From positions 165,945 through 207,624 of the forward strand of contig MU129014.1 of assembly GCA_014904985.1 (NCBI GenBank): 41,680 bases of DNA, read 5' to 3'. Below, in pieces: positions 313-38,054 of the stretch. How positions within the stretch are numbered: position 1 is the stretch's first letter; every line of letters starts with the position of its first letter. Both the position numbers and the translations under genes were made by a program. Below the pieces are notes generated by a model that worked only from the letters and a program-made list of their open reading frames with translations, was not told where the DNA came from and did not search any database. Source of the stretch: Hydnum rufescens UP504 (lineage: Eukaryota; Basidiomycota; Agaricomycetes; Cantharellales; Hydnaceae).

Positions 313-515
313 GTTTCATGGTTTTGTTCATGGGGTTTAGCTTCGCAGGGCTTTGTTTGCTGGGTTTGGCTTTGTGGGGCTTTGTTTGCCGGGTTTGGGG
401 TCACGGGGCTTCATTTGCCGGGTTTGGGGTCACGGGGCTTCATTTGCCAGGTTTGCGGTCGCGGGTTTCGCTTGGTGGGTTTCGGGTGGCAGGTTTGGTG
501 TTGGGGGTCCAAGAT

Positions 516-622
516 CTAGAAAAGTAAACACGTTAGTTAAACATTAAAGCATTGCAAGAAGAGCAGCATACGCTGCTCTTCTTGCGCCACAAAAATGAAA
601 ATAAAAAATAAAAAAATCTCAT
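516..622 (-). other. Hairpin-intron module, element 1 left arm 3 (AT-AG variant)
   Basis: The intron-like interval is 107 bp. The 5' site is ATGAGA instead of GTGAGT, so the first base is G-to-A. The internal hairpin at 554-585 has stem GCAAGAAGAGCAGC, in which an A-to-G change is matched by T-to-C on the other strand. The branch-like motif is AACTAAC and the 3' end is TTCTAG. The exon hairpin is at 631-660. Confidence 0.6.
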
Positions 623-876
623 CTTAGAGTACCACACACCCGCTGCAGTGGGTGTGTGGTTCCTGGGGCCACTCGTTGGCCCTGGGTCATTTCGTGTCTT
701 TGTCTGGTGGGTGGTCCTTCTTTGCCTGCATGGTATTCGTTTGGCGGGTGGCCTTGGGTGTGTGTTCATGTGGTGCTGTCATTTTGGGGGCTCAGGTTCG
801 TTTGGCGGTTCTTCATTTGGCTGTCTGTTCCATTCGTTCTTTCCTTCATTTCATTGGCCACAGGCCAGGCAATAAC

Positions 877-977
877 CTAGAAAAATACATACATTAGTTA
901 GAAATTAAAACCAGCACAAAAAGAGCAGCTTTCGCTGCTCTTTTTGTGCGGCTGTATCTACTTGGGTGGGGACTCAC
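877..977 (-). other. Hairpin-intron module, element 1 left arm 2
   Basis: A 101-bp intron-like interval with 5' GTGAGT (972-977), a perfect 36-nt hairpin at 914-949 (stem GCACAAAAAGAGCAGC, loop TTTC), CTAAC-like branch motif and 3' TTCTAG (877-878). The exon hairpin at 990-1,015 sits just upstream of the 5' site with ATATAAG between them. Confidence 0.7.
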
Positions 978-1258
978 CTTATATAGTGCCACACACCCAC
1001 TGCAGCAGGTGTGTGCTTCCTTGGGCCACTCATTGGGCACATTGTTGTCCATTGCGCTGTCGTCTGTTGCGTTGTTGTCCATTGCACCATCGTCTGTTGC
1101 ATTGTCGTCCATCGTGCTGTTGTCTGTTGTGTTGTCATTTGGCACATTGCCATCTGTCGCATTGGGCGCATCATCATCTGTCACATTGCTGGTTGGGCCC
1201 CTGCTGTTCAGGGCCTCATCATTTGGCGAGTGGTTGCCATGCGGGACCAGGCCATGAT

Positions 1259-1367
1259 CTGAAATAATAAAAGATGTGTTAGTAAAAAAAATCCAAAGCA
1301 GCACAAAAAGAGCAGCTTGGCTGCTCTTTTTGCACCGTTGTATCTACTACGATTAAAAAACACTCAC
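1259..1367 (-). other. Hairpin-intron module, element 1 left arm 1
   Basis: A 109-bp intron-like interval with 5' GTGAGT (1,362-1,367), hairpin at 1,301-1,334, ACTAAC branch motif and 3' TTTCAG. The exon hairpin at 1,375-1,406 is a 14-bp stem (GACCACACACCCGC) with a CGAT loop. This is the mirror partner of the module at 2,246-2,352. Confidence 0.7.
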
Positions 1368-1591
1368 CTTATATGACCACACACCCGCCGATGCGGGTGT
1401 GTGGTCGCCTGGTTGCCTTTCTAGGTGGTTGTCACCTGTGGGGTCAGTGGTTGCTTCAGTGGGTGGTGGTTGCGTAGTTGTGAAGGAAGACACAACTCAA
1501 CGCTGGCAATTGCTGGAACCCAAAAGTGCCCAAGTGCTGGTGCTACAAGCACCATATACATTAATAGCAATTATCTAGATGTGTAACAAGG

Positions 1592-1602
1592 ACTATATAA
1601 TA
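1592..1602 (-). promoter_or_regulatory. TATA-like motif, left arm of element 1
   Basis: Mirror copy of the motif at 2,031-2,041 (CTATATAATAA on the plus strand). It would suit a transcript running outward through the left-arm introns. Inference only; no start site can be seen. Confidence 0.25.
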
Positions 1603-2030
1603 AATATTTGTTCAAAATTATAAAAAAGGCCATGATAATAAGTCAGAGATCAATACGGCACCATATGCCTGCATTGCACAGCGGATTAGGCCACTTCTAT
1701 TGGTTAGAATTGGCCCAAATTTAAATATATTGGTGGTGTATATGTATCCTACATGGGTGACTAGTTATATCGGACGATCACTCCATTTTTGGATTTTTGC
1801 ACCTTCAATTCCCTATTTAGGGAATTGAAGGTGCAAAAAATCCAAAAATGGAGTGATTGTCTGATATAACTAGTCGCCCATGTAGGATACATATACACCA
1901 CCAATATATTTAAATTTGGGCCAATTCTAACCAATAGAAGTGGCCTAATCCACTGTGCAATGCAGGCATATGGTGCCATATTGATCTCTGACTTATTATC
2001 ATGGTCTTTTTTATAATTTTGAACAAATAT

Positions 2031-2041
2031 TTATTATATAG
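2031..2041 (+). promoter_or_regulatory. TATA-like motif, right arm of element 1
   Basis: TTATTATATAG inside a conserved AAATATTTATTATATAGT block also present at 20,012-20,028 in element 2. It lies about 200 bp upstream of the first outward-facing 5' splice-like site. Conservation between two otherwise diverged cores suggests function; promoter activity is inferred. Confidence 0.3.
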
Positions 2042-2245
2042 TCCTTGTTACACATCTAGATAATTGCTATTAATGTATATGGTGCTTGTAGCGCCAGCAC
2101 TTGGGCGCTTTTGGGTTCCGGCAATTGCCGGCGTTGAGTCTTTGTGACCCACTGAAGCAGCAACCACCGAACTGGCACCTGACAACTGCCTAGGAAGGCA
2201 ACCAGGCAACCACACACCCGCCGATGTGGGTGTGTAGTCAACAAG

Positions 2246-2352
2246 GTGAGTTTTTTTTATCATAGTAAATACATCAGCGCAAAAAGAGCAGCAGAAGCTG
2301 CTCTTTTTGCGCTGCTTTGAATTTCTTTACTAATGTATTGTTATTATTTTAG
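2246..2352 (+). other. Hairpin-intron module, element 1 right arm 1
   Basis: A 107-bp intron-like interval: 5' GTGAGT (2,246-2,251), perfect hairpin at 2,277-2,312 (GCGCAAAAAGAGCAGC, loop AGAA), ACTAAT branch-like motif, 3' TTTTAG. The exon hairpin is at 2,209-2,238, immediately upstream. Confidence 0.7.
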
Positions 2353-2499
2353 ATCATGGCCTGGTGCAAAATACCAGGCCCAAATAGCAATATGCCAGAC
2401 AAAAACACAACGAACGAGACCACGGCAGCCAGGGACCCGCCCAACGAGTGACCCCACGAACCACACACCCACTGCGGCGGGTGTGTGGTTCTATGTAAG

Positions 2500-2599
2500 G
2501 TATGTTGCTCAGTGTACCCAACAGCGCAAAAAGAGCAGCATATGCTGCTCTTTTTGCACTGGTTTTGATTTCTAACTAACGAGTTATTTATTTTTCTAG
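2500..2599 (+). other. Hairpin-intron module, element 1 right arm 2
   Basis: A 100-bp intron-like interval: 5' GTATGT (2,500-2,505), hairpin 2,524-2,559 (loop ATAT), CTAACTAAC branch motif, 3' TTTCTAG. The exon hairpin at 2,459-2,490 has a 12-bp AACCACACACCC arm. Confidence 0.75.
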
Positions 2600-2775
2600 G
2601 TTATCGCCTAACCCACAACACACAAAATGAAGAACTGCCCAACAAGAATGAACAAAATGGATGCCCGCCAAGGACACCCACCAAATGAACCCCGGGCCCC
2701 TTGAAACGATACGGAGCCAACAAGTGGCCCCAGGAACCACACACCCGCTATGGCGGGTGTGTGGTACTATATAAG

Positions 2776-2877
2776 GTAAGTCTTCCCCAGTAGATACCGC
2801 CGCGCAAAAGGAGCAGCTTAGGCTGCTCTTTTTGCGCTGCTTCAAATGTCTAACTAACGTATATTTTAATATTCTAG
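2776..2877 (+). other. Hairpin-intron module, element 1 right arm 3
   Basis: A 102-bp intron-like interval: perfect GTAAGT (2,776-2,781), hairpin 2,802-2,837, CTAACTAAC branch motif and 3' TTCTAG. The exon hairpin at 2,736-2,765 (ACCACACACCCGC, loop TATG) is followed by ACTATATAAG directly before GTAAGT. This is the clearest single example of the module and the last one on this arm. Confidence 0.75.
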
Positions 2878-3084
2878 GTCATGAATCTGAACCAACACCA
2901 CCTCAGGCAGATAGATTTGGACCCTGTGGGTCAGCTTTTACTGCACAGGAGAGGACCCAAAGGGTCCCCCAACCTATCACAGACCCATGGGTTGGACAAA
3001 TATTGACCCATGAGGGGACAGCACTAAACCATGGTTTTGGCATGGTCAGGGCAGGGTATTGACAATAAAACTCATGGGCTGGGC

Positions 3085-3665
3085 CACTCCACCCATGGGT
3101 GGGACCTGCTGACCCATGAGTTAGAGCATTAGACCCATGGGTTTGACCCCTAGAGCCATGAGTTTGACCTCCAGACCCATGAGTTTGACCCCAGACCCAT
3201 GGGTTTGAGCCCTGGACTCATGAGTTAGACCCCAGACCCATGGGTTTGAGCCCTGGACTCATGAGTTAGACCCTCAGACTCATGAGCCAGACCCTCATAC
3301 CCATGAGTTAGATCCTCAGACCCATGAGGTGGACCATCAAACTCATGAGTTTGGCCCCAGACCCATGGGTCTCACCCCTAGACCCATGGGTTTGACCCCC
3401 AAACCCATGGGTTTGACCTCTAGACCCATGGGTCTGACCTCTAGACCATGGGTCTGACCTCTAGACCCATGGGTCTGACCTCTAGACCCATGGGTCTGAC
3501 CTCTAGACCCATGGGTCTGACCCCTAGACCCATGGGTCTGACCCTAGACCCATGGGTCTGACCCCTAGACCCATGGGTTTGACCCCTAGACCCATGGGTT
3601 TGACCCCTAAACCCATGGGTTTGACCTCTAGACCCATGGGTCTGACCACCAGACCCATGAGTTGG
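3085..3665. repeat. ~21-bp minisatellite with a palindromic ACCCATGGGT core
   Basis: About 25 head-to-tail copies of a unit close to GACCCATGGGTCTGACCTCT, with TTTGACCCC variants. Early copies are more diverged (ACTCATGAGTTAGACC); the stretch 3,420-3,640 is nearly homogeneous, suggesting recent expansion. Most units hold the perfect 10-bp palindrome ACCCATGGGT. No long reading frame crosses it. Confidence 0.9.
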
Positions 3666-18845: not shown

Positions 18846-18948
18846 CTAGACAATTATTACTTTAAATTAGTTAAAAAAATTAAAGAACACGCAAAAAAGC
18901 ATCTTTTTGTCGCCTTTTTGCATGCTGCTACGTAGTGGGAGAACTCAC
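18846..18948 (-). other. Hairpin-intron module, element 2 left arm 2
   Basis: A 103-bp interval: GTGAGT-type donor (18,943-18,948), decayed internal hairpin at 18,891-18,921, AACTAAT branch-like motif, 3' TCTAG. Exon hairpin at 18,959-18,988. The intron hairpin is the most eroded of the set. Confidence 0.6.
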
Positions 18949-19260
18949 CTGATATGGAACCACACACCCGCTTTGGCGGGTGTGTGATTCCTGGCACGTC
19001 ATTTGATGTGGTCGCGTCCTCGTTTTGCACGGGTGTCCGTAGTATCGGTCATTGGGTTGCTGTGTCGCGTTTGCCATGCGGTCAGCTGCCGTTGTCGCGT
19101 TGCCACTGCGTTCGCAACTGCAGTCCGGTTGCCGTATGCTGTGCTGCCGTGTCACGTTGCCGTTACGTGCACTGCCGTGTCGCCGTACCCATGCGTTGCG
19201 CGCCACTGTCACGTTCCCGTGCATTGGGGTTTCCCGTTTGGGCTCTTGTGAGGCCTCAAT

Positions 19261-19373
19261 CTATAAATAAATAAAGGCGCGTTAGTTAATAAAAATTCTA
19301 AAGCCAGCGCAAAAAGAGCAGCTTTCGCTGTGCTCTTTTTGCGCCGTTGTATCTACTAAAAAAAAATACTCAC
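19261..19373 (-). other. Hairpin-intron module, element 2 left arm 1
   Basis: A 113-bp interval: GTGAGT donor (19,368-19,373), hairpin 19,307-19,344, AACTAAC branch motif, 3' TTATAG. The exon hairpin at 19,380-19,411 has stem GACCACACACCCGC with one G-T pair and loop AGCG. Confidence 0.7.
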
Positions 19374-20016
19374 CTTGGTGACCACACACCCGCAGCGGCG
19401 GGTGCGTGGTCGTGTGCGTTGCCTTTTCGAGCGGTTGCTTGTTGTGGTTGCGGAGATGGAAGCAAGATGCAGATTCAATCACTGGCAATTGCCGATACTC
19501 AAGAAGCGCCCAAGCGCTGGCACTGCAAGCACAGTACACAATAGTACCAAGCATGTATAATTATAAATAAATACCTATATAATAAAAATTGTCCAGTAAA
19601 ACCCTGAAGAAGAGGATGGATAATGAGTCAGAGGTCAATAAGGCATGAGATGGCTAATTACAGAGTGGATTGGGCACTTCTACGCATCAGAATTGGCCCA
19701 AATTGAAATATAGTAGTGTCTATATATACGCTCTACATGGGTGATTGATTATCTCGGACGATAATCGCATTTTTCAATTTTCAATGCCTTCAATTCCCTA
19801 ATTTAGGGAATTGAAGGCAGTGAAAAATTGAAAAATGCGATTATCGTCCAAGATAATCAATCGCCCATGTAGGTGTATATATACCATTACTATATTTAAA
19901 GTTTGGCCAATTCTGATGTGTAGAAGTGGCCCAATCCACTCTGCAATTAGCCATCTCATGCCTTATTGACCTCTGACTCATTATCATTGGCTTCTTCGGT
20001 TTTCCTGGGCAAATAT

Positions 20017-20027
20017 TTATTATATAG
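20017..20027 (+). promoter_or_regulatory. TATA-like motif, right arm of element 2
   Basis: TTATTATATAG, identical to 2,031-2,041 in element 1 and mirrored near 19,577-19,587. Its position relative to the first outward intron is similar in both elements. Promoter role is inferred. Confidence 0.3.
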
Positions 20028-20179
20028 TATTTATTTTAATATACATGCTTGTCCTATTGTGTACTGTGCTTGCAGTGCCAGCGCTTGGGCACTTCTCAAG
20101 TGTCAGCAATTGCCGGCATTGAATTTTCGCAACTATGCAGCCACACCCAGCAACAGAAATGCGACCGCATGGCCATGGC

Positions 20180-20208
20180 ACAACAGCAGCAGCAACAGCA
20201 GCAGCAAT

Positions 20209-20249
<41 letters not shown>

Positions 20250-20282
20250 GCAGCAGCAGCAGCAGCACAGCAGCAGCAGCAA
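20180..20282. repeat. CAG trinucleotide repeat
   Basis: Nearly pure (CAG)n with a few CAA, AAG and CAC interruptions, present only in the right arm of the palindrome. It reads as poly-Ser, poly-Ala or poly-Gln in the three plus frames, and none of these is a supported protein. CAG repeats form hairpins, so expansion inside a palindrome is plausible. Confidence 0.95.
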
Positions 20283-20348
20283 TGCAACAGTGCATGACCA
20301 CAGACCATGCACCACACACCCGCATCAGTGCGGGTGTGTGGTCATAAG

Positions 20349-20451
20349 GTAAGTTTTATCTCAATAGATACAATAGTGCAAAAAGAGTAGCATAAGCTAC
20401 TCTTTTTGCGCTGCTTTCAATTCTTCTACTAACATACTTTTATTATTCCAG
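20349..20451 (+). other. Hairpin-intron module, element 2 right arm 1
   Basis: A 103-bp interval: GTAAGT (20,349-20,354), hairpin 20,376-20,411 with stem AGAGTAGC/GCTACTCT, i.e. a C-to-T change matched by G-to-A in the partner strand. ACTAAC branch motif, 3' TTCCAG. Exon hairpin 20,311-20,342. Confidence 0.75.
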
Positions 20452-20701
20452 GTCATAGCCTGGTCCCAGGTACTGAATGAAACCCCGCCAAATGAACCAA
20501 ACTAACAACACCATGCCAAATGAACCCCACCGAACGAAATCCCGCCGAGCAAAACCACGCCAAACGACAATGCAATACGACGAGGACACCAGCGATGGGG
20601 ACGGGCCGATCAAGCAACTCAACAACACCACGCCCAACGACACCACCGACATCACGCCCCACAGAACCACACCTGCTGAGGTGGGTGTGGTTCTACATAA
20701 G

Positions 20702-20794
20702 GTAAGTAAGGTCTAATGGCACAAAAAGAGCAGCGAATGCTGCTCTTTTTGCACTGGTTTTAATTTAAAACTAACATGTTATTTATTATTCTAG
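20702..20794 (+). other. Hairpin-intron module, element 2 right arm 2
   Basis: A 93-bp interval, the shortest: GTAAGT (20,702-20,707), hairpin 20,719-20,754 (loop GAAT), AACTAAC, 3' TTCTAG. Exon hairpin 20,663-20,694 has the shortened stem ACCACACC. Confidence 0.7.
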
Positions 20795-21010
20795 GTTATC
20801 GCCTGAAGTACATACAGCAAGATGAAGACCCGCCGAATGAACCCCCCCCCCTGCAAATGACAATGCCCCCATGAAATGAAAGCCACAAACACGCCCTGCC
20901 AAAAGAACAAGCACCAAACAAAACCCAGGAACAAGGATGCACAACACAGGACCACAGAACCCCCCAGACAAACCACACACCCGCTTCGGTGGGTGTGTGG
21001 TAATCTTAAG

Positions 21011-21113
21011 ATAAGTTTTTATTGCGCCAAAGGAGCAGCATACGCTGCTCCTTTGCATAGGTTTTTCTTTCTTTTTTACTAACATATTATTCATTTTTTA
21101 TTATAGTTTCTAG
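21011..21113 (+). other. Hairpin-intron module, element 2 right arm 3 (AT-AG variant)
   Basis: A 103-bp interval with ATAAGT instead of GTAAGT at 21,011. The hairpin at 21,027-21,056 has stem CCAAAGGAGCAGC/GCTGCTCCTTTG, with paired changes on both sides. ACTAAC branch motif, 3' TTCTAG. Exon hairpin 20,972-21,001. Confidence 0.65.
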
Positions 21114-21242
21114 GTTAACGAGTCCGCATGCCCGACAACCCCCAAACCCACCTGAGCCCCATACGAAAACCCGATAGAGGAAGGCATCGCGACCGCGTAC
21201 GAACGAGTACCACACCCGCCGAAGCGGGTGTGGTACTACAAG

Positions 21243-21343
21243 GTAAGTAAAGCTGTACACTCCCAACTGGCGCAAAAAGAGCAGCAAATGCTGCTCTTTT
21301 TGTGCCAGTTTTAATTTTCTAACTAATACATCTATCATTCTAG
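21243..21343 (+). other. Hairpin-intron module, element 2 right arm 4
   Basis: A 101-bp interval: GTAAGT (21,243-21,248), extended hairpin 21,266-21,309 whose stem gains ACTGG/CCAGT, AACTAAT branch-like motif, 3' TTCTAG. Exon hairpin 21,206-21,237 (AGTACCACACCCGC, loop CGAA). Confidence 0.75.
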
Positions 21344-21502
21344 GCTCTCGCTTTAAATGAAGACCCATGAAAGGAACTGCCCCCCCCCCCGAAACGATAA
21401 CCTGCTGAAACCCATGACGACGACACGCCAAATGAAGACACGAAACACACGGAACCACATGAACCACACATCTGCTACAGTGGGTGTGTGGTTCTATACA
21501 AG

Positions 21503-21604
21503 GTAAGTAACCTTGTGTACCCACAACGGCATAAAAAGAGCAGCAGATGCTGCTCTTTTTACACTGGTTTTAATTTTTTACTAACACATTATTTATTATT
21601 CTAG
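21503..21604 (+). other. Hairpin-intron module, element 2 right arm 5
   Basis: A 102-bp interval: GTAAGT (21,503-21,508), hairpin 21,532-21,563, ACTAAC, 3' TTCTAG. Exon hairpin 21,461-21,494. The next exon hairpin (about 21,759-21,788) is no longer followed by a splice-like site. Confidence 0.7.
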
Positions 21605-21911
21605 GTACCGCCTTACCACAAACACCAAAATGAAGACCCGCCAAAGGAAACCCCCCCCAGGGAATGACAATGCCCCTGCCACATGGAAACCAACAATGTG
21701 ACCCACCAAAATGAGTGCCGAACGAAACCCGCTGAACCGAGGAGTGAAACCAGGCCAGACCACACACCTGCTACTGCGGGTGTGGCCACCCCAACAGACA
21801 CTAGGGACCAGTCCAAACGACCGGCCCAATGGTGAACCGCCAAGCCACAGCCCCCCTTCCCTTGAAATGGACCAGCGACAAGCCCGCCGAGTCCCAATGA
21901 AGAAGCGGAAG

Positions 21912-22294
21912 GCACCACACACCTGCTAGGCCAGGTGTGTGGTGCTACTAGGTTGTTTTTTTTTTTTTAAATTTCTACAGACAGTGCCACACCTGCTTGA
22001 GTGGGTGTGGTGCTACCTTAGTTTTTTTTTAAGTTTCTATGGATGGTACCACACACCTGCCCAAGCAGGTGTGTGCTACTAAGTAGTTTTTTTATTTTTT
22101 ATTTTTATTTTATTTTTAAGGACGGTACCACACACCCACCCATGTGGGTGTGTGGTGCTACTAAGTTAGTTTTGTTATTTTTTTATTTTTAAGGACAGTA
22201 CCACACACCCGCCCATGTGGGTGTGGTGCTACTAAGTAGTTTTTTTATTTTATTTCTATGGACGGTACCACACCTGCCCAAGCGGGTGTGGTAT
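21912..22294 (+). repeat. Compact array of exon-type hairpins
   Basis: Six copies of the CCACACACC-N-GGTGTGTGG hairpin (near 21,912, 21,987, 22,047, 22,127, 22,200 and 22,267), spaced 60-80 bp by T-rich linkers containing GCTACTAAGT and TTTTTAAGGAC. The intron hairpin and splice-like sites are gone. It looks like a shortened form of the module that has multiplied separately. Confidence 0.8.
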
Positions 22295-22314
22295 TTTTTT
22301 ACTAATTGAATTTT

Positions 22315-22619
22315 AAATAAATAAATAAATAAATAAGTCCTAATTGGGCGAGTGCTCAACATGCAAATGGGTAACCAGAAAGCCCGCCTAGGCAGGCCTC
22401 AAATATATGTATAATAAGTGATAATAAATAAATAATTATAAATGGAACACTATTATCACCGATAAGTCCATATGGCCTGCTGTCCTGCAAGTCTGAGATT
22501 CTCTAAGTCCCAGTTTTGGCCAATTTTTGGCCAATTTTTGGCCAATTTTTGGCCATTTCGGCCAATTCTGGGCCAGAAGGTGCAGGCCATAAAATGGCCA
22601 TTTTGGCCAGAATAGTGAT
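22315..22619. other. AT-rich and GGCC-rich subterminal region of element 2
   Basis: No gene. It holds (AAAT)n at 22,315-22,335. At 22,510-22,600 there are tandem TTTTTGGCCAA units resembling the TGGGCCCAA repeats at 115-180, so they are likely family-specific subterminal repeats. Confidence 0.6.
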
Positions 22620-22694
22620 GGGACCTACTTAGGTACCATTATCTGCCCCAAAAGTGGTACCTAACTAGGTAGGCTTAGATGACTGACCAAGGTG
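22620..22694 (+). repeat. Right terminal inverted repeat of element 2
   Basis: A 75-bp block with GGGACCTACTTAGGTACC inside, then GTGGTACCTAACTAGGTAGG, ending ATGACTGACCAAGGTG. Its reverse complement matches the left end of element 3 (25,077) almost base for base, placing elements 2 and 3 in one family. The bases after it (GACCAGGC) are the candidate target duplication, but the partner is in the gap. Confidence 0.8.
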
Positions 22695-24332: not shown

Positions 24333-25068
24333 CTAGATTAGGAAGGAGGTTAAGGGCACTTTGCGGGAGCATGTGCAATAGCATTTAATCACTATATTAC
24401 AGGGAGCCTCGACATGATCCTCTTCCCCAACACTCAAGTGAGGTGCGGTAAGGATAGATGGGGCAGGTGTGATGGAAGGTGTAGTCCAACCGGTGTGACT
24501 ATGAAAGGCGGGCATACGACAAATTGGGGTCTGGGCCCAATGTTGGTCAATCAGTACTTGGGGCAAAGATGCCTGTTTGGTCAGAATCAAGCCAATGGGT
24601 GAGGGTTGGATGGTGGGGACCTTGACTTTAACGGAATTGACATTGGCCACCGTGGCAGCTGCTGGAGCAGAGTTGTCGGCAATTGAATGAGTGGACGAGG
24701 TAATGGAGGTGTTGTCTGGGGTAAGAGGTGTGGGCTCAGATGTCTGGTGACCGGGATGCTTGAATTTCGGGGTCTCAAGAGGGAAATTGAGAGCACGAAA
24801 GACATGCTTAGCATGATGACGATTCTGTTGGATGAATAAGTGAGGGGCTAACACTCATGGAATGAATTCCGGGAGTCGCGCACTTACGGGATGCTGAATA
24901 GATGACTTCTCAGAGTCCCGATCGGAATTGCAGCCGGGGGAGCTGTCGGATTCATGATCGAGGACTTGGTTGTATTTTGTGCGAAATCTGGTAGGGGTGC
25001 TGGTAGAGGATGTAGTGGGGTTTGTGCTGGGCTTTTTGGTACTTTTGTTGGTGATGAACTGCTTAATG
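24333..25068 (-). pseudogene. Gag-like gene segment with a 63-bp intron, downstream of the element 3 insertion
   Basis: The upstream exon (to 24,888) reads SIKQFITNKSTKKPSTNPTT, then DHESDSSPGCNSDRDSEKSS. An intron at 24,887-24,825 (GTAAGT to AACAG) joins in phase 0 to NRHHAKHVFRALNFPLETPK and a Pro/Thr/Ser-rich tail ending at 24,333. The 7-8 bp duplicated target sits at 25,069-25,076. Removing element 3 joins this frame directly to STDSTHHSPLQ at 32,53x. An inverted copy of this stretch is at 30,537-30,993, where the acceptor is damaged. Function unknown. Confidence 0.5.
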
Positions 25069-25076
25069 GACTGCAG
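25069..25076. repeat. Target-site duplication of element 3, left copy
   Basis: GACTGCAG directly before the terminal repeat CACCTTGGTCAG. The same octamer follows the right end at 32,518-32,525. Because of a shared G it could be counted as 7 bp (ACTGCAG). Confidence 0.75.
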
Positions 25077-26862
25077 CACCTTGGTCAGTCATCTAAGCCT
25101 ACCCAATTAGGTACCACTTCTGGGGCAGATAATGGACCTAACATGGTCCCATCACTATTTCGGCCGAATTCGGTCATTTAGGTCTTTCCCTTTGAAATCT
25201 CTCACTCAAGCTTCTGGCTGAAAATTGGCCGAACATTGCCCAAAATGATGACTTAGAGCTCAAGCCCTTGGAACACTTTAATTAAAGGCCATTATAGATG
25301 GCTTCAAGTCCGCCTTTAAGGAATCAAACTTAAACTTAGGAATTTTTAGATATAATCAAACAGTTTTTAGAATATAACAGTACTATATACACAACATATC
25401 ATAACCATATGGTACTGTTCAACTGCATCTTCAGAAAGAGTTGAGGAGAAGGGAGGAGGAGCAAAACACTTGAGCGACACCTGAAGTCCTCAAACCCATC
25501 CAATCCCCCTGAAGATAATATTGAAAGAGATCCAAAACTGAGGGATTTCTATCAAGCCCAGTAGCCCCCCATAGTACACTGCTTCCATCAAACAGTGTGT
25601 GAATGACAAGGCAGATGAATGCCTTAAAGCCCCAACACTAGAAATGCTCCTGCACCTTGAGTTGTTATCAGATCATCCTGAATGTACTGGAATTGGAATG
25701 CCACAATAAAGGCCTTTCTTCCAAGCCCATATATGAGGAGAGGCATGTAGATTACATGACGAAGTGAGGGTAGGAATGAAATATCAGCTCCAAAGTGCAT
25801 TGGGAGCTCCTGAAGGTGCAATTCGCACAGATCGGCTCAACAATGGTACCGTTGGAAAGCCCTAAATCACAGCTTTCGATCAAGCACAATATTGTATGTT
25901 TTGGTGGGGATTTGGTGATGAAGAAGCAGGAGGAGTACAGAGGTGATGAGGAATCACCACTCATCTCACTCCTGAGCATGTAGTTCACCTCCAATAATCT
26001 CACAAATAAGACCAATGGAAAGCTGTGATTCACAGCTCCATGTCAAGCCTATTATGAGACGATTGGAAATGAACTCATGGAGATATGGGGGAAAAGGGGG
26101 AACAGGGCCATAGGAAAACGAAAGCCACTGTCCCCCAATACCCACAAAATGCACGAATAGGGCTTGTTTGAAAGCGTTGATCAGGGCTTTCCACTGGCAT
26201 ACACACCAAATAATACAACAATTTGCTACTCCCTGAAAAACCACACAGAGGTGATAATAGGGACATGGCAACAATGAAGACCCCTGGTATGCACCCTCCA
26301 GAAACCTCACAGTGGTTCTGGGTGTTGCAGTGGTCATCCCCCCTCTTGTGTACTCCCTGAAGCCACACAAAGGGGAAACAAACAGGGGAATGGCGACAGC
26401 TAAGACTCTAGTATCCACCCTCCAGAAACCTCACAGAGGTGGTTCTGGTTTGCAGTGGTCCATCCCCCCCCTCCTCTCCCCTAAAAAATAAAGTTCTAAT
26501 GCACCTATCACACCAAAAACCACGACGGAAGTGGCTTATGCAGTATAGGAATGACACCCAAGGTTCCCCAGACCTCCTGTTGATCAGGATGGAATGTGCT
26601 CAAGTCACTGTCCACTCAGAGGTGACAGTACCTTTTGCAACGTTTCCTAAGGCCAGCAGCTATGGGGGATTGAGGCCAGTCAGTAAAAATCAAAGATAGT
26701 GCAAAAGAGCTGCACTAGGCAGCTCTTTTGGCCCACAATGTATATACTAGCGTAGCAATATACTCCACCTTACTCCACAGCCAGGTTCGTAGGTGTGGTG
26801 TTGAGTTGGGGAATAAGGGTGGTGAGTTGCAAGAAAGGCCACAGTGGCTGTGCCCTTTCCTC
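25077..26862 (+). mobile_element. Palindromic element 3, left half (arm A)
   Basis: Begins with the family terminal repeat (25,077-25,150) and runs to the hairpin at the palindrome centre, where it stops abruptly at about 26,862. Compared with arms B-D it carries many one-base insertions and deletions (for example at 26,150-26,270), so it is either decayed or low-quality sequence. It includes a damaged intron module near 26,700-26,780. No protein supported. Confidence 0.75.
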
Positions 26863-26973
26863 CGCGCCGCATAAACAATGTGCGACCTGTTTCTGCATCC
26901 CAACTCCTATTCCCGGAAGTCTTAAACATCGCTCGCCCTCCACCGACAGCACCCATCATTCACCCCTGCAGTC
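26863..26973 (+). repeat. Inverted copy of the right flank of element 3
   Basis: This ~110-bp stretch (GCGCCGCATAAACAATGTGC onward to CTGCAGTC) is the reverse complement of 32,518-32,630, the sequence outside the right end of element 3. It abuts the broken centre of arm A, which no simple transposition explains. Confidence 0.85.
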
Positions 26974-28730
26974 AGGCTGGTCAGTCATATAGGGGACCTA
27001 AGATAGGTACCACTTTTGGGGCAGAGAATGGTACCTAATAGGTCTCCTAGGGCCTTCGGCTGAATTCGGTCAAAAATCATTCATTTCAATTCACTAGCTC
27101 ACAGCCATTCTGGGCTATTTCAGGCATTTTTCGGGCATTTTTCAGGCAGTTTCAGGCATTTCAGTATGCTCTATTGAAGTCTCTTCCTCAACTCTTCAGG
27201 CGAGACCTGACTGAAATTTGCCCAAATGAGGACTTGGACAAATCAACTAGCTAATATCTACAAGGCTTCCCTAGGTGAGGGGGAGGGCAGAAACCACAAG
27301 TTGAGGAGAAGCAAGGGCAAGGACACTTGAGGCCTGAAGTCGTGAAACCCATCCAATCCCCCTGAAGATAATATTGGAAGAGATCCCAAACTGAGGGATT
27401 TCTATCAAGCCCAGTAGCCCCCCATAGTACACTGCTTCCATCAAACAGTGTGTGAATGACAAGGCAGATGAATGCCTTAAAGCCCCAACACTAGAAATGC
27501 TCCTGCGCCTTGAGTTGTTATCAGATCGTCCTGAATGTACTGGCATTGGAATGCCACGATAAAGGCCTTTCTTCCAAGCCCATATATGAGGAGAGGCATG
27601 TAGATTACATGACGAAGTGAGGGTAGGAATGAAATATCAGCTCCAAAGTGCGTTGGGAGCTCCTGAAGGTGCAATTCGCCACGGATCAGCTCGCCAATGG
27701 TACCGTTGGAAAGCCCTAAATCACAGCTTTCGATCGAGCACAATATCGTATGTTTTGGTGGGGATTTGGCGACGAAGAGGCAGGAGGAGTACAGAGGTGA
27801 TGAGGAGATCACCACTCATCTCACTCCTGAGCATGTAGTTCACCTCCAATCGTCTCACAAATGGACCAATGGAAAGCTGTGATTCACAGCTCCATGTCAA
27901 GCCTATTATGAAGACGATTGGAAATGAACTCATGGAGATATGGGGGAAAAGGTGGGAAACAGGGCCATAGGAAAGACGAAGCCACTGTGCCCCCAATACC
28001 CCACCAAAATGCGCGATATAGGGCTTGTTTGAAAGCGTTGATTCAGGGCTTTCCATCTGGGCATACGAACGCAATGAATACGACAATTGTGCTACTCCCT
28101 GAAACCACACAGAGGTGATAATAGGGACATGGCGACAATTAAGGACCCTGGTATGCCACCCTCCAGAAACCTCACAGAGGTGGTTTCTGGGTGTTGCAGT
28201 GGTCCATCCCCCCCTCTTGTGCTACTCCCTGAAGCCACACAGAGGTGGAAACAACAGGGGAATGGCGACAGCTAAGGACTCTAGTATGCCACCCTCCAGA
28301 AACCTCACAGAGGTGGTTTCTGGGTGTTGCAGTGGTCCATCCCCCCCCCCTCTCCCCTAAAAATAAAGTTCTAATGCACCTATCACACCAAAACCATGCA
28401 GAGGTGGCTTATGGCAGTGATAGGAATTGACACCCAGAGGGGTGTCCCCAGACCTCCTGTTGATCAGGATGGAATGTGCTCAAGTCACTGTCCACTCAGA
28501 GGTGGACAGTGACCTTGTGCAACGTTTCCTAAGGCAGCAGCTATGGGGATTGATGCCAGATCAGTAAAAATCAAAAGATAGTGCAAAAGAGCTGCACTAG
28601 GCAGCTCTTTTGGCACCAATGTATATACTAGGTAGCATATACTCACCTTACTTCCACAGCCCAGGTGTTCTAGGGTGTGGTGTTGAGTTGGGGAATAAGG
28701 GTGGTGGTGAGTTGCGAGGAAAGGCACAGT
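26974..28730 (+). mobile_element. Palindromic element 3, arm B
   Basis: Starts with terminal repeat AGGCTGGTCAGTCAT (26,974-27,045) and runs to the centre at 28,730/28,731. From about 27,330 inward it is nearly identical to the reverse complement of arm C. Contains an inverted intron module (28,540-28,645, minus) and two ~125-bp repeats holding the hairpin CCAGAAACC/GGTTTCTGG (28,160-28,345). Open frames of about 110 codons occur but are mirrored on both arms and show no domain. Confidence 0.8.
28540..28645 (-). other. Hairpin-intron module, element 3 arm B
   Basis: Exact mirror of 28,816-28,921. The donor GTGAGT reads outward from the centre on the minus strand, followed by the GTGCCAAAAGAGCTGC hairpin and a CATAG end. 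Confidence 0.55.
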
Positions 28731-30536
28731 GCTGTGCCCTTTCCTTGCAACTCACCACCACCCTTATTCCCCAACTCAACACCACACCCTAGAACACCTG
28801 GGCTGTGGAAGTAAGGTGAGTATATGCTACCTAGTATATACATTGGTGCCAAAAGAGCTGCCTAGTGCAGCTCTTTTGCACTATCTTTTGATTTTTACTG
28901 ATCTGGCATCAATCCCCATAGCTGCTGCCTTAGGAAACGTTGCACAAGGTCACTGTCCACCTCTGAGTGGACAGTGACTTGAGCACATTCCATCCTGATC
29001 AACAGGAGGTCTGGGGACACCCCTCTGGGTGTCAATTCCTATCACTGCCATAAGCCACCTCTGCATGGTTTTGGTGTGATAGGTGCATTAGAACTTTATT
29101 TTTAGGGGAGAGGGGGGGGGGGATGGACCACTGCAACACCCAGAAACCACCTCTGTGAGGTTTCTGGAGGGTGGCATACTAGAGTCCTTAGCTGTCGCCA
29201 TTCCCCTGTTGTTTCCACCTCTGTGTGGCTTCAGGGAGTAGCACAAGAGGGGGGGATGGACCACTGCAACACCCAGAAACCACCTCTGTGAGGTTTCTGG
29301 AGGGTGGCATACCAGGGTCCTTAATCGTCGCCATGTCCCTATTATCACCTCTGTGTGGTTTCAGGGAGTAGCACAATTGTCGTATTCGTTGCGTTCGTAT
29401 GCCCGATGGAAAGCCCTGAATCAACGCTTTCAAACAAGCCCTATATCGCGCATTTTGGTGGGGTATTGGGGGCACAGTGGCTTCGTCTTTCCTATGGCCC
29501 TGTTTCCCACCTTTTCCCCCATATCTCCATGAGTTCGTTTCCAATCGTCTTCATAATAGGCTTGACATGGAGCTGTGAATCACAGCTTTCCATTGGTCCC
29601 ATTTGTGAGACGATTGGAGGTGAACTACATGCTCAGGAGTGAGATGAGTGGTGATCTCCTCATCACCTCTGTACTCCTCCTGCCTCTTCGTCGCCAAATC
29701 CCCACCAAAACATACGATATTGTGCTCGATCGAAAGCTGTGATTTAGGGCTTTCCAACGGTACCATTGGCGAGCTGATCCGTGGCGAATTGCACCTTCAG
29801 GAGCTCCCAACGCACTTTGGAGCTGATATTTCATTCCTACCCTCACTTCGTCATGTAATCTACATGCCTCTCCTCATATATGGGCTTGGAAGAAAGGCCT
29901 TTATCGTGGCATTCCAATGCCAGTACATTCAGGACGATCTGATAACAACTCAAGGCGCAGGAGCATTTCTAGTGTTGGGGCTTTAAGGCATTCATCTGCC
30001 TTGTCATTCACACACTGTTTGATGGAAGCAGTGTACTATGGGGGGCTACTGGGCTTGATAGAAATCCCTCAGTTTGGGATCTCTTCCAATATTATCTTCA
30101 GGGGGATTGGATGGGTTTGAGGACTTCAGGTGTCGCTCAAGTGTTTTGCTCCTCCTCCCTTCTTCTCCTCAACTCTTTCTGAAGATGCAGTTGAACAGTA
30201 CCATATGGTTATGATATCTTGTGTATATAGTACTGTTATATTCTAAAAACTGTTTGATTATATCTAAAAATTCCTAAGTTTAAGTTTGATTCCTTAAAGG
30301 CGGACTTGAAGCCATCTATAATGGCCTTTAATTAAAGTGTTCTAAGGGCTTGAGCTCTAAGTCATCATTTTGGCCAATGTTCGGCCAATTTTCAGCCAGA
30401 AGCTTGAGTGAGAGATTTCAAAGGGAAAGACCTAAATGACCGAATTCGGCCGAAATAGTGATGGGACCATGTTAGGTCCATTATCTGCCCAGGAAGTGGT
30501 ACCTAATTGGGTAGGCTTAGATGACTGACCAAGGTG
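28731..30536 (-). mobile_element. Palindromic element 3, arm C
   Basis: Mirror of arm B out to about 30,131. It then switches to the outer sequence of arm A and ends in its terminal repeat (30,463-30,536). Arms B and C together therefore form a complete element in opposite orientation to arms A plus D. Confidence 0.8.
28816..28921 (+). other. Hairpin-intron module, element 3 arm C
   Basis: A 106-bp interval: AAG then GTGAGT (28,816-28,821), hairpin 28,846-28,882 (AAAAGAGCTGC/GCAGCTCTTTT), branch-like ACTGAT, 3' CATAG. A weak exon hairpin (CCACACCC/GGGCTGTGG) lies just upstream. Same plan and size as the modules of elements 1 and 2 despite different stem sequences. Confidence 0.6.
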
Positions 30537-30993
30537 CTGCACAGCAGTTCATCACCAACAAAGTACCAAAAAGCCCAGCACAAACCCACTACATCCTTCT
30601 ACCAGCACCTACCAGTTTTCGCACAAAATCAAACAAGTCCTCGATCATGAATCCGACAGCTCCCCCGGCTGCAATCCGATCGGGACTCTGAGAAGTCATC
30701 TATTCAGCATCCCGTAAGTGCGCGACTCCGGAATTCATTCATGAGTGTTAGCCCCTCACTTATTCATCCAACAAATCGTCATCATGCTAAGCCTGTCTTT
30801 CGTGCTCCTAATTTCCTCTTGAGACCGAATTCAAAGCCACCCGGTCCCAGACATCTGGCCCACACTCTTACCCCACACAACACCCCATTACCTCGTCCAG
30901 TGTCATTACATTGCAGACAAACCTGGATCCAGCAGCTGCACGGTGGCAATGTCAATTCGTTAAAGTCCAAGGTCCCCACTCATCCCAACCCCT
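30537..30993 (+). repeat. Inverted copy of the left flank of element 3
   Basis: Reverse-complement match to 24,620-25,076 with scattered indels, including loss of bases in the target-site region and in the intron acceptor. It carries part of the gag-like gene on the plus strand and is cut by the N run. Confidence 0.85.
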
Positions 30994-31018
30994 NNNNNNN
31001 NNNNNNNNNNNNNNNNNN
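30994..31018. other. Assembly gap (25 N)
   Basis: Run of 25 N separating the inverted flank copy from arm D. A fixed short run like this usually marks a join of unknown length. Confidence 0.99.
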
Positions 31019-32517
31019 TCTTGATCAACAGGAGGTCTGGGGACACCCCTCTGGGTGTCAATTCCTATCACTGCCATAAGCCACCTCTGCATGTGTTTGG
31101 TGTGATAGGTGCATTAGAACTTTATTTTTTAGGGGAGAGAGGGGGGGGGATGGACCACTGCAACACCCAGAAACCACCTCTGTGAGGTTTCTGGAGGGTG
31201 GCATACTAGAGTCCTTAGCTGTCGCCATTCCCCTGTTGTTTCCACCTCTGTGTGGCTTCAGGGAGTAGCACAAGAGGGGGGATGGACCACTGCAACACCC
31301 AGAAACCACCTCTGTGAGGTTTCTGGAGGGTGGCATACCAGGGTCCTTCATTGTTGCCATGTCCCTATTATCACCTCTGTGTGGTTTCAGGGAGTAGCAC
31401 AATTGTCGTATTCATTGCGTTCGTATGCCCAGATGGAAAGCCCTGAATCAACGCTTTCAAACAAGCCCTATATCGCGCATTTTGGTGGGGTATTGGGGGC
31501 ACAGTGGCTTCGTCTTTCCTATGGCCCTGTTTCCCACCTTTTCCCCCATATCTCCATGAGTTCATTTCCAATCGTCTTCATAATAGGCTTGACATGGAGC
31601 TGTGAATCACAGCTTTCCATTGGTCCATTTGTGAGACTATTGGAGGTGAACTACATGCTCAGGAGTGAGATGAGTGGTGATCTCCTCATCACCTCTGTAC
31701 TCCTCCTGCCTCTTCGTCGCCAAATCCCCACCAAAACATACAATATTGTGCTTGATCGAAAGCTGTGATTTAGGGCTTTCCAACAGTACCATTGGCGAGC
31801 CGATCTGTGCGAATTGCACCTTCAGGAGCTCCCAATCGCACTTTGGAGCTGATATTTCATTCCTACCCTCACTTCATCATGTAATCTACATGCCTCTCCT
31901 CATATATGGGCTTGGAAGAAAGGCCTTTATTGTGGCATTCCAATTCCAGTACATTCAGGACTGATCTGATAACAACTCAAGGTGCAGGAGCATTTCTAGT
32001 GTTGGGGCTTTAAGGCATTCATCTGCCTTGTCATTCACACACTGTTTGATGGAAGCAGTGTACTATGGGGGGCTACTGGGCTTGATAGAAATCCCTCAGT
32101 TTTGGATCTCTTCCAATATTATCTTCAGCGGGATTGGATGGGTTTCATGACTTCAGGCCTCAAGTGTCCTTGCCCTTGACTTCTCCTCAACTTGTGGTTC
32201 TGCCCTCCCCCTCACCTAGGGAAGCCTTGTAGATATTAGCTAGTTGATTTTTCCAAGTCCTCATTTGGGCAAATTTCAGTCAGGTCTCGCCTGACAGAGT
32301 TGAGGAAGAGACTTCAATAGAGCATACTGAAATGCCTGAAACTGCCTGAAAAATGCCCGAAAAATGCCCAAAATAGCCCAGAATGGCTGTGAGCTAGTGA
32401 ATTGAAATGAATGATTTCTGACCAAATTCAGCCGAAGGCCCTAGGAGACCTATTAGGTACCATTCTCTGCCCCAAAAGTGGTACCTATCTTAGGTCCCCT
32501 ATATGACTGACCAGCCT
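31019..32517 (-). mobile_element. Palindromic element 3, right half (arm D)
   Basis: Matches arm C from about 28,994 and the reverse complement of arm B, then ends with the same outer sequence and terminal repeat as arm B (32,446-32,517). The centre-proximal ~270 bp, including the intron module, is missing at the N run. With arm A it makes the original copy flanked by the target duplication. Confidence 0.75.
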
Positions 32518-32525
32518 GACTGCAG
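32518..32525. repeat. Target-site duplication of element 3, right copy
   Basis: GACTGCAG immediately after terminal repeat end CTGACCAGCCT; partner at 25,069-25,076. Confidence 0.75.
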
Positions 32526-32760
32526 GGTGAATGATGGGTGCTGTCGGTGGAGGGCGAGCGATGTTTAAGACTTCCGGGAATAGGAGTTGGGATGCAGAAA
32601 CAGGTCGCACATTGTTTATGCGGCGCGTCTGCGCCACTTTCTTTGTCACGACCCTTGAGAAAAGATATGTCAGAAAGTGTATCGGTGGACGAGGTAGGAG
32701 AACCCTCGGAGCCCTTGGAGCGCAGGTTTCCATATAGGACGGGTTTGCCTTGGGAGGCAT
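32526..32760 (-). pseudogene. N-terminal part of the gag-like gene interrupted by element 3
   Basis: Begins MPPKANPSY at 32,760, then, in another frame, a Ser/Gly/Lys-rich stretch (GNLRSKGSEGSPTSSTDTLS; FLKGRDKESGADAPHKQCAT) leading to STDSTHHSPLQ at the insertion point. Past the insertion the same frame resumes at 25,068 with SIKQFITNK. The start resembles that of the 5,774-6,741 protein (MPPK). A frameshift or small intron separates MPPKANPSY from the rest. Gag/ORF1-like role is inferred from composition only. Confidence 0.45.
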
Positions 32761-33434: not shown

Positions 33435-34511
33435 TTAGGCGGCCTCTTGTTGCCTCTTCTGGTGCTTTTTCCAACGGTTCCAGACTTCTTCCCAATCGGG
33501 CGTGGGTATTCTATATGACATGAGCAACTCGGGATCCCCGACACAGATTACAGTGGTGCTTGGTTGGTATTCCTCATCACTTCCAATTAGAGCGTTTAGT
33601 TGTTGGTCATCCGAATCCGAGTCTTGTTCTATTAGTTGCTTGATTAGGACCTTGTCGGGCTTTCATTCTCGTGAGTAAAATTGTTTGATGCGATCTGCGG
33701 TGATTGATCCTTTCATAGGCGTTGCATCTAGTTCCACCAGGTGATAGGACCCAGACTTCAGCTGCTTGAGCACATGGAAGGTCCTGCCCATCGGTTATGG
33801 TACTTGGCTCCCTGAAATTTGGCGTTGACGTCGAATTGTGCCTGGTACACCAAGACCAACGTTCCTTGTGGATATGTACCTGTGAATAATCGTCACATAT
33901 GACGCTTGGCGTAGTCTTGGGCAGCTCTGACGTGACTTTCTTCATTCGATCCTGCTGCTAGTTGTCGGTTGTGCAAAAGAGTGGCTAACTGTTTTGTTTG
34001 GAGAGTAAGGAGGTCCTCAGTGGTTGTACTTTATGCCAGTCTAGCATATACCATGATTTATCCATTATATTGAATGGGAATAGGTGCGGGCAACTGTATA
34101 ACAGAAAATATGGCGAGAAACCTGTTCCACGCCTTGTGGTAACACGATCTACTCCAATGGTACTTCTTCTTCCCGCATATCCTCAGGATCATCATTATCT
34201 TCAGTATTCTCCGTGTCGCCTTCCGCTTGAGGTCTCCGCGATAAACCATCTGGTGCAATGTGTTTCTCAGCTGGGATGTGGATGAACTCGAAATCAAGTT
34301 TTGGATGTAAGTAATCCATCTTGTCATTGCCAGACTTGGTAGGCCTGGTTTATTGATCATTTCCTTGATGTATTTGGCATCAAGTTCCACTCGAAAGTGG
34401 ATGCCCCATAGGTCGTACTTGAGTGCCTTCAGTGCATGATAAAGGCCACACAACTTGATCTTTGACTGTGAATAGCGGCTTTCTACATTGTTCCATGTAA
34501 TGGAGCTGTAT
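33435..34511 (-). pseudogene. Ty3/gypsy polyprotein, C-terminal part (RNase H end, integrase C-terminus)
   Basis: Continuation of the polyprotein at 39,822-41,571 after the LTR element. In order on the minus strand: RNase H part (NNVESRYSQSKIKLCGLYHA; LWGIHFRVELDAKYIKEMIN; MTRWITYIQN), then an acidic linker ending EEEVPLE. The next block is already the C-terminal third of integrase (TGFSPYFLLYSCPHLFPFNI), so the zinc finger and DDE core are deleted near 34,150. The GPY/F-like end follows (LVLVYQAQFDVNAK; SGSYHLVELDATPMKGSITA) and the stop is at 33,435. TGA codons interrupt at 33,893-33,895 and 33,663-33,665. Non-functional. Confidence 0.85.
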
Positions 34512-34516
34512 ACTAT
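34512..34516. repeat. Target-site duplication of the LTR element, left copy
   Basis: ACTAT just before TGTAACA; identical ACTAT follows TATTACA at 39,817-39,821. A 5-bp duplication is usual for LTR retrotransposons. Confidence 0.85.
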
Positions 34517-35059
34517 TGTAACAAAGTGCCTCCCAGTTCAGGAGGGCACCTGTTGTCATACTTGGACAAAGTGGAGTTGACAGGGGAGGGAGTAGGAATA
34601 AGGAGAAGAGGAGAAGGGGTAATCACACCACCCTTAGCACTGGCTTCAGGTGGGGGAGCTGCAAACAGGGCTAAGCACTGGCTTTGCCCTGGACACAGGA
34701 GAAAAGGATGTGAAGGAAGGGAAGTCATGATGAAAGGCATAAAGTAGTGACTGGCCAAGTGGCACAGTCACTAACTAAAGAGAGAGTGGGGGGGTCAGTG
34801 AGAGGAAAGGGCTATCCTACTCACTGCTTTCCCAGCTAGGGTCCAAAGGTGCAGTCCCAAAGCCAGGGAAAGGGCTAGTATTGATGGCTACTAGACAGGC
34901 CAACCAGCTAGGCAGATAGAAGCAGAGTAGAGACAGGTATTCACAGTTTCTCACTAGGGTGACGAAGATCCGGGCAAAGGTTAACTTGATTAATCCTGGC
35001 AACTGCCGTATATACATGACTTTTGAGTCCTAACTTAATTACATAATACACTATATTAC
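34517..35059 (-). repeat. Long terminal repeat, 3' LTR in element orientation
   Basis: About 97% identical by eye to 39,277-39,816. Differences include one-base changes and small indels (for example AGGGTGACGAAG versus AGTGACAAAG near 34,955). The outermost T-to-A change alters its TG terminus on the minus strand. Confidence 0.85.
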
Positions 35060-37757: not shown

Positions 37758-38054
37758 CTGGATACAAGCTCCTCAAAGGTTTGGCCAAGGTACTTGGGCT
37801 TGTGGGGAAGGGATAGACTGAATATTTCCATTGAATGTACATGAATGTGAAGGGAGGAGTTTGTGCCAATGTACAAGGGGAAGAGGAGGGGATGCAGGGA
37901 AGTCCAGTGAAATGACAAGTCCTCCAACAATATCCAGCCAATTATCTTGAAAGTCAGGCTATTGGAAGGCCACAATTGGGGCTTTCAATCAAGCATAGAG
38001 GCAAGGGAATACGCAGGGAATCAGTGCATAAACTGGAGAAGGGGGGAATGGATT

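Follow-up and report, generated by a model that had tools for sequence, protein, structure and literature searches.

Known Systems and the Locus Under Study

The transposons closest in their ends to the element described here belong to the basidiomycete KDZ group (Kyakuja, Dileera and Zisupton). In the part of PMC12730594 that treats these families, the two Kyakuja families described possess 5'-CA..TG-3' termini and 7 bp target-site duplications and are given no terminal inverted repeats, and Zisupton and Dileera are given 8 bp duplications. The same part lists 8 bp duplications for hAT elements, with 7 bp in hAT7, and defines EnSpm/CACTA elements by 5'-CAC..GTG-3' ends and a 3 bp duplication. 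For KDZ1 of Cryptococcus, the relevant portion of PMC12810828 gives a terminal repeat length of 241 bp and a duplication length of 8 bp, and Helitrons are defined in that of PMC4289320 by 5'-TC..CTRR-3' ends and the lack of a duplication. Introner-like elements insert singly into genes and, according to the corresponding part of PMC9860276, do so in fungi without target-site duplications or terminal repeats. In this study, we analyzed a 41,680-nucleotide stretch of contig MU129014.1 of Hydnum rufescens UP504 (hereafter the window), together with its assembly (63.2 Mb, 539 contigs). The sequence at 313-2,899 of the window is probably a DNA transposon copy that has lost its distal parts; no coding capacity was detected in the family, and its centre is predicted to drive two spliced non-coding RNAs outward. 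No such architecture was found described in the titles and abstract openings listed by searches of an open-access library, which covered neither subscription papers nor Repbase. Below, L numbers denote fetched genome loci, C numbers denote genome contigs, and the hub is the palindromic centre between the innermost splice donors.

Architecture of the Window Element

The palindrome is centred at ~1,817, and its inner arms, delimited by a repeat search, are at 1,495-1,798 and 1,836-2,139 (304 nt, 97% complementary). The initial annotation had described a palindrome whose arms carry three modules each, all facing outward, with the orientation flipping at the centre. Direct reading of the sequence and the repeat search confirmed this arrangement, in which the modules lie outside the palindrome core and the switch occurs at ~1,817. 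The order within the modules was the same in all six: an H1 hairpin (CCACACACCCGC-loop-GCGGGTGTGTGG), a donor ~10 nt beyond it, an H2 hairpin (GCAAAAAGAGCAGC-loop-GCTGCTCTTTTTGC) between the donor and a CTAAC-like branch site, and YAG.

The hub, a proposed divergent promoter, spans 1,368-2,245, and its halves are identical at 395 of 419 aligned bases. Each half contains a TATA-like motif of putative function, one at 1,592-1,611 on the minus strand, ~225 nt upstream of the first left donor, and the other at 2,023-2,042 on the plus strand, ~200 nt upstream of the first right donor. On the plus strand of the right arm, H1 hairpins mark the exon ends at 2,210-2,237, 2,459-2,488 and 2,735-2,764. 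They precede predicted introns at 2,246-2,352 (GTGAGT...TAG, with H2 at 2,279-2,310), 2,500-2,599 (GTATGT...TAG, H2 at 2,526-2,557) and 2,776-2,877 (GTAAGT...TAG, H2 at 2,804-2,835), respectively. The junctions proposed earlier for this arm, 2,245/2,353, 2,499/2,600 and 2,775/2,878, match these module boundaries exactly. On the minus strand of the left arm, the first predicted intron is at 1,259-1,367 (GTGAGT...CAG, H2 at 1,303-1,333, H1 at 1,375-1,404) and the second at 877-977 (GTGAGT...TAG, H2 at 916-947, H1 at 989-1,016). The third left module, at 516-622 (H2 at 554-585, H1 at 630-659), has the non-canonical donor AAG/ATGAGA in place of AAG/GTGAGT, a change found identically in the sister copies L033 and L034. 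Canonical donors were thus present in five of the six modules. In place of the GTAAGT or GTGAGT attributed to the modules at the outset, the donor at 2,500 is GTATGT and that of the outermost left module is ATGAGA.

The span of 313-2,900 originally assigned to the element did not stand as its full extent. At both bounds it abuts other repeats, and in sister copies the element extends beyond them in both directions. Homology on the right, where alignments extend that far, breaks off at 2,899 in L031, L033, L034, L035, L037, L038 and L048 and at 2,899-2,910 in L032; on the left it begins at ~314. The stretch at 313-2,899 is thus a truncated palindromic element, a sister of L033, L034 and L036, from which the distal parts of both arms are absent. 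The repeats that flank it (1-312 and 2,900-3,000) abut with mutually similar ends, CTGACTGAGGTG directly before the left junction and CACCTCAGGCAG directly after the right one, which resemble in style the A and B ends described below.

A Genome-Wide Family with Defined Ends

The H1 half-site had 3,574 + 3,513 matches in the genome, as compared with 29 + 32 for a reversed control pattern. For H2, a search requiring an exact stem of 12 bp gave 2,348 matches and its control none. A motif present a single time in each hub half had 222 + 217 matches at no more than two mismatches (control, 0 + 0), from which about 220 hubs are estimated for the genome. Neither the H1 nor the H2 pattern matched any viral contig. 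Six stretches of prokaryote contigs with single H2-type hairpins were regarded as chance terminator-like hairpins.

Twenty regions of 6-10 kb were fetched around module matches and hairpin clusters, chosen by module similarity, and the hub region was alignable in 16 of them. The 20 loci analyzed further consisted of 19 of these regions (L040 was left out) and the window. Eighteen hubs between facing modules, spread over 14 of these loci, were recognized; one hub of less than 500 bases was left out of the orientation and TATA counts. Within 2 kb of the remaining 17 hubs, 127 modules faced outward and one inward, of which the innermost 34 are outward by the definition of a hub. TATA-like motifs were found in both halves of 14 of the 17 hubs, mostly ~180-225 nt upstream of the first donor. 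The identities between hub halves ranged from 79% (L034) to 98-99% (L031, L042 and L044), and L031 was self-complementary at 96.7% over 2.6 kb, which suggests that the arms were homogenized or recently formed in some copies and not in others. The notion that hub halves are generally more alike than the hubs of different copies fails, because the window copy matches L034 at 95%, more closely than the two halves of L034 match each other. The window copy is grouped in one subfamily with L033, L034 and L036.

Variation within arms was also observed. In L102 (C39:14,600-15,260), neighbouring modules have near-identical exons, from which it appears that an exon and its intron were recently duplicated in tandem within the arm. 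In L053 (C27:53,190-54,350), a palindrome of ~1 kb, an H1 hairpin links two B-end tails, which make up the whole of it; no target-site duplication was found there, and this structure suggests that palindromes may arise by fold-back at hairpins. Among the first 100 hairpin places listed, lone H1 or H2 hairpins outside clusters were found at ~399 and ~444 kb of C1 and at ~8 and ~624 kb of C2; these could be fragments or single introns.

Where copies were followed to their end, the arms finished in an A+T-rich tail plus a terminal region. Copies with different flanks end at the same base, either at an A end (5'-CAGGCTGGTCAGTCA) or at a B end (5'-CACCTTGGTCAGTCA). The element termini are of the form 5'-CA..TG-3' (CAGGCTGG and CACCTTGG), and the two different ends share a terminal inverted repeat. 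The genome contains 261 A ends and, at no more than two mismatches, 342 B ends. Pairing was carried out with the first 100 of the A ends and 85 of the B ends (contigs up to C82; B ends of C84-C100 were left out because the A ends listed reach no further than C82). Among the ends listed, there were 43 adjacent inward-facing pairs of less than 10 kb, of which 40 were A-B, 2 were B-B and 1 was A-A. At least 13 of the 43 pairs enclose a hub, as counted with a partial hub list. Complete relatives are mostly 4.4-6 kb long.

For target-site duplications, 60 bases per end were compared in 20 A/B pairs (3.6-6 kb), which were picked by hand and not at random. Exact duplications of 7-8 bp flanked 11 of the 20 (five of 8 bp and six of 7 bp), and 14 of the 20 had duplications with at most one mismatch; among 380 mispaired-flank controls, the corresponding numbers were one and two. 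Exact duplications were present in four of the sampled pairs that enclose a listed hub (on C11 and C20, at C35:204,279 and on C39). For instance, the copy at C39:12,038-16,724 combines an A end, a hub, outward modules, a B end and the duplication GACAGCT. The defined ends and the duplications together indicate past DNA transposition. At L046:7,799 and in L055 (C26), elements sit exactly at the edge of an H2 hairpin that belongs to another copy, and the position in the hairpin is the same in both cases; hairpin-directed insertion is possible at these sites.

Constraint on Splice Sites and Hairpins

An H1 hairpin together with a good donor was found in 182 of 221 modules, and the 185 with H1 that entered a redundancy filter yielded 116 non-redundant modules. 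These were taken for having H1 and H2, and their orientation was chosen partly by splice motifs. In their alignment, the best-conserved columns outside the stems include the donor AAGGTaAGT, ACTAAC and TAG. Non-CpG changes were then counted in 368 aligned pairs of paralogues, in which the partner module was free of any motif requirement. The donor GT was changed in 1 of 736 cases, as compared with 245 of 2,892 for control GT, and the acceptor AG in 14 of 736, as compared with 325 of 7,478 for control AG. Changes numbered 36 of 1,840 at the branch site, 425 of 13,239 in H2, 1,040 of 18,125 in the rest of the intron and 2,021 of 41,215 in exons. Deletions affected 8 of 736 donors and 8 of 736 acceptors. 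Conditioning of the query module on the motif lowers the expected change rate by up to half, which is too little to account for the donor figure. As judged on this paralogue scale, the donor, branch site and H2 are constrained, the acceptor is moderately so and H1 is unconstrained.

The consensus of donor, branch site and acceptor under constraint is that of U2-type introns. The conservation of the splice columns among the 116 modules and the constraint on the donor GT support the claim of the initial annotation, in which each arm is an array of hairpin-bearing introns that face outward. Genome copies whose splice motifs are no better conserved than their surroundings, the observation named at the outset as contrary to this claim, were looked for and did not occur.

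The covariation of H2 was examined in 80 distinct stems from the 116 modules, each with a 4-base loop, at most nine mismatches to the consensus and 18 pairs. Pairing was found in 92.3% of the cells. Double changes occurred in 131 cells, as compared with 46 in shuffles, and none of 500 shuffles reached 131; the covariation score collapsed when the partner column was slid. On the outward strand, G-U wobbles outnumbered A-C mismatches by 109 to 38 (41:17 in the inner 14 pairs), and the ratio was 42:25 in a second set of 75 unique 14-bp H2 stems; naive p values for this bias ignore shared ancestry. Because G-U and A-C swap on the opposite strand, the bias favours an outward-strand RNA over a cause that acts on DNA only or by template switching. 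The ratio for H1, 38:26, is a weak tendency in the same direction.

Coding Signal, Composition and RNA Families

No coding signal was detected in 123 predicted exons and 37 spliced chains when compared with shuffles. An open sense frame was found in 49 of the 123 exons, as compared with 47.1 after shuffling, and an open antisense frame in 92. The exon lengths modulo 3 were distributed as 40, 40 and 43. In the spliced chains, the longest sense frame averaged 88 amino acids versus 83 in dinucleotide shuffles, and the longest antisense frame 121 versus 127. The exons are poor in CpG (observed/expected ratio of 0.69) and rich in TpG (2.46), as expected of methylated, silenced repeats.

No Rfam family matched any part of the window above its gathering score; a loose threshold gave 20 and 17 matches, none of which reached gathering. 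The palindrome centre matches microRNA-precursor models below the gathering score, a similarity that presumably reflects its form as a long hairpin.

KDZ genes are abundant in the genome, with 154 matches from the 150 scored of 584 candidates, and hAT genes gave 90 matches. Among the matches listed for contigs up to C82, however, none of 46 KDZ hits and none of 39 hAT hits lay inside the 43 end pairs. Ten open reading frames of the window had no match to KDZ, and a search for TET/JBP gave no match above the cut-off.

Comparison with Known Systems

Similar to KDZ transposons, the family described here has CA..TG ends and 7 or 8 bp duplications, and by these features it would appear to behave like a KDZ-type cut-and-paste transposon. 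It could be a non-autonomous KDZ relative. Different from the Kyakuja families, however, its A and B ends share a terminal inverted repeat, and different from KDZ elements in general, its interior consists of two non-coding intron arrays around a palindrome and, among the matches listed, no KDZ-type transposase is encoded within the 43 end pairs. The 8 bp length known from hAT elements was found in five of the 11 exact duplications, the other six being of 7 bp; the family differs from hAT in having 7 or 8 bp duplications within one family and, among the matches listed, no hAT transposase inside. Membership in KDZ or hAT would require a transposase and cannot be claimed here. EnSpm/CACTA was rejected, as exact agreement over 3 bp of flank was found in 1 of the 20 sampled copies and over 7-8 bp in 11. 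Helitrons were rejected because of the 7-8 bp duplications and the CA..TG ends.

Foldback transposons also have long inverted repeats with internal repeated modules. In the present family, however, the inverted repeats meet centrally, splice sites occur in the modules, and a short terminal repeat distinct from these arms forms the outer ends. Fungal introner-like elements and stwintrons are similar in being repeated, structured U2-type introns, as they are portrayed in the parts of PMC8469720 and PMC9860276 concerned, whereas in the present family it is the multi-intron element as a whole that is mobile. Finally, splicing-coupled RNA interference (RNAi) of Cryptococcus neoformans, known as SCANR, ties splicing efficiency to transposon silencing according to the pertinent section of PMC5851062. 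That system is known for transposon-related transcripts of another species.

Interpretation and Alternatives

Given that TATA-like motifs occur in both halves of most hubs, the hub is plausibly a divergent promoter. In the reading that we favour, two non-coding RNAs would run outward from it, and their hairpin-bearing introns of ~100 nt would be lost by ordinary splicing. A transposase made elsewhere would recognize the ends and move the element, mobility in trans being suggested by the lack of a recognized transposase inside, and modules would multiply via tandem duplication within an arm.

Non-coding transposons are usually thought to need their ends only. The constraint on internal splice sites of an element without coding signal (~180 modules sampled, of thousands in the family) implies that the spliced non-coding RNA seems to matter for its spread. 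We tentatively propose that a transposon without protein genes may have the spliceosome in its life cycle, in that its fitness would rest on two divergent, multiply spliced and hairpin-studded RNAs from a palindromic promoter, and copies that cannot be spliced would fail to spread. Badly spliced transposon transcripts feed RNAi in Cryptococcus, as described in the same section of PMC5851062, and by analogy clean splicing may keep copies from silencing. In this view, which is speculative and of low confidence, cleanly splicing copies would escape splicing-coupled RNAi and stay open to the transposase, with H1 and H2 guiding the spliceosome to the right sites. The family would allow a connection between splicing and transposon fitness to be tested; in one species of this kingdom, splicing quality is already tied to RNAi defence. 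Moreover, with thousands of naturally occurring versions of a single structured intron, it constitutes a data set on hairpins beside splice sites.

Several observations weigh against this reading. The loci were picked non-randomly, by their likeness to the module, and the paralogue pairs are non-independent. Of the 20 sampled A/B pairs, 6 were shown to enclose a listed hub. Six of the 20 sampled copies had no duplication, including two of the six with a listed hub, those at C32:330,611 and C35:188,890. Nor was a duplication found around L049 (C6) or the B-B copies of C26 and L053. The window copy itself has neither end, both having been lost to other repeats, and its sister L034, of the same subfamily, has related but different end sequences, around which no duplication was found. 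When KDZ and hAT hits were compared with the end pairs, no autonomous partner was found among the matches listed. H1 was changed in 543 of 11,424 positions of the paralogue pairs and is thus no better conserved than exons (2,021 of 41,215), and its covariation is weaker than that of H2, with 31 double changes as compared with 16.8 in shuffles and a maximum of 28 in 1,000 shuffles. In predicted folds of 164 modules, the donor was paired with a mean of 0.65, as compared with 0.48 for other intron bases, which speaks against hairpins that expose the donor. Finally, splicing of the module introns is itself predicted, as we infer it from constraint on the sequence.

Splice constraint in non-coding sequence is also what a host function would give, and the copy number is high. 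Hubs and arrays might thus be regulatory loci or sources of small RNA that serve the host and ride in transposon ends, their splicing being maintained by the host. Complete copies have transposon ends, however, many of them with target-site duplications; copies are nested within one another; and the exons are depleted of CpG (0.69, with TpG at 2.46) like silenced repeats. We therefore consider this explanation unlikely. Another explanation places the function at the level of DNA, where hairpins would be transposase binding sites or cruciforms kept perfect by template-switch repair and the splice-like motifs would be incidental. The double changes by which stem pairing is kept could also be produced by template-switch correction, and in two cases an element has inserted directly at the margin of an H2 hairpin. 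Yet a DNA mechanism should be strand-symmetric, whereas G-U exceeded A-C on the outward strand (109:38), the donor GT was far more constrained than other GTs, and modules faced outward by 127:1, all of which make a DNA-level origin very unlikely.

Could each intron instead be mobile by itself, separately inserted into a non-coding repeat as an introner-like element? The likeness between introns exceeds that between exons, internal symmetry is reported for fungal introner-like elements in the part of PMC8469720 cited above, and a few of the first 100 hairpin places listed stand alone. Most of those places are clustered, however, the exon ends (H1 and its flanks) are shared together with the introns, exons recur jointly with introns in L102, and duplications flank the whole element; independent insertion is thus highly improbable. 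The least credible of the alternatives, and one to which we give next to no weight, is that the arrays are decayed genes for repeat-rich proteins. Tandem repeats of 15 bp in some exons do read as an N/D/T-rich peptide, but open frames are not in excess, exon lengths are even modulo 3, and two-base indels separate close copies. A truncated transposon copy with predicted outward-directed, spliced non-coding RNAs is the explanation that we favour for 313-2,899.

Second Copy and Other Features of the Window

A second, longer copy was found at 18,846-22,694 of the window, with a hub at 19,374-20,348, two modules on the left and five on the right. Its left introns are predicted at 18,846-18,948 and 19,261-19,373, and its right introns at 20,349-20,451, 20,702-20,794, 21,243-21,343 and 21,503-21,604; a further right module at 20,969-21,106 has the non-GT donor AAG/ATAAGT. 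The distal part contains H1-only repeats at ~21,915-22,290, an A-rich tail at ~22,312-22,340 and a B end at 22,694. The left end was not found and is perhaps hidden by a run of N. The H1-only repeats are tandem units of ~73 bp, found at 21,915-22,290 of the window and at L049:5,845-6,210, which contain H1, a CTACTAAGTAG-like stretch and a T-run and immediately precede the A-rich tail; they are possibly the 3' end of a structured RNA. A run of CAG repeats at 20,184-20,290 lies in what is presumed to be the first exon of this second copy.

Nested inverted duplications in the order P Q P' Q' occupy 24,603-32,627 of the window, of which 27,299-30,174 is self-complementary at 98%. A and B ends are present within them at ~25,077, 26,973, 30,536 and 32,518, and the flanking DNA was duplicated too. 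The window also contains a 21-bp minisatellite of 26.6 copies at 3,111-3,663 (GACCCATGGGTTTGACCCCTA), and a fragment of a retrotransposon RNase H domain at 34,058-34,537 (PF17917, E 2e-08). Finally, a 69-bp repeat of 7.4 copies at 37,250-37,759 is open throughout in one plus-strand and two minus-strand frames.

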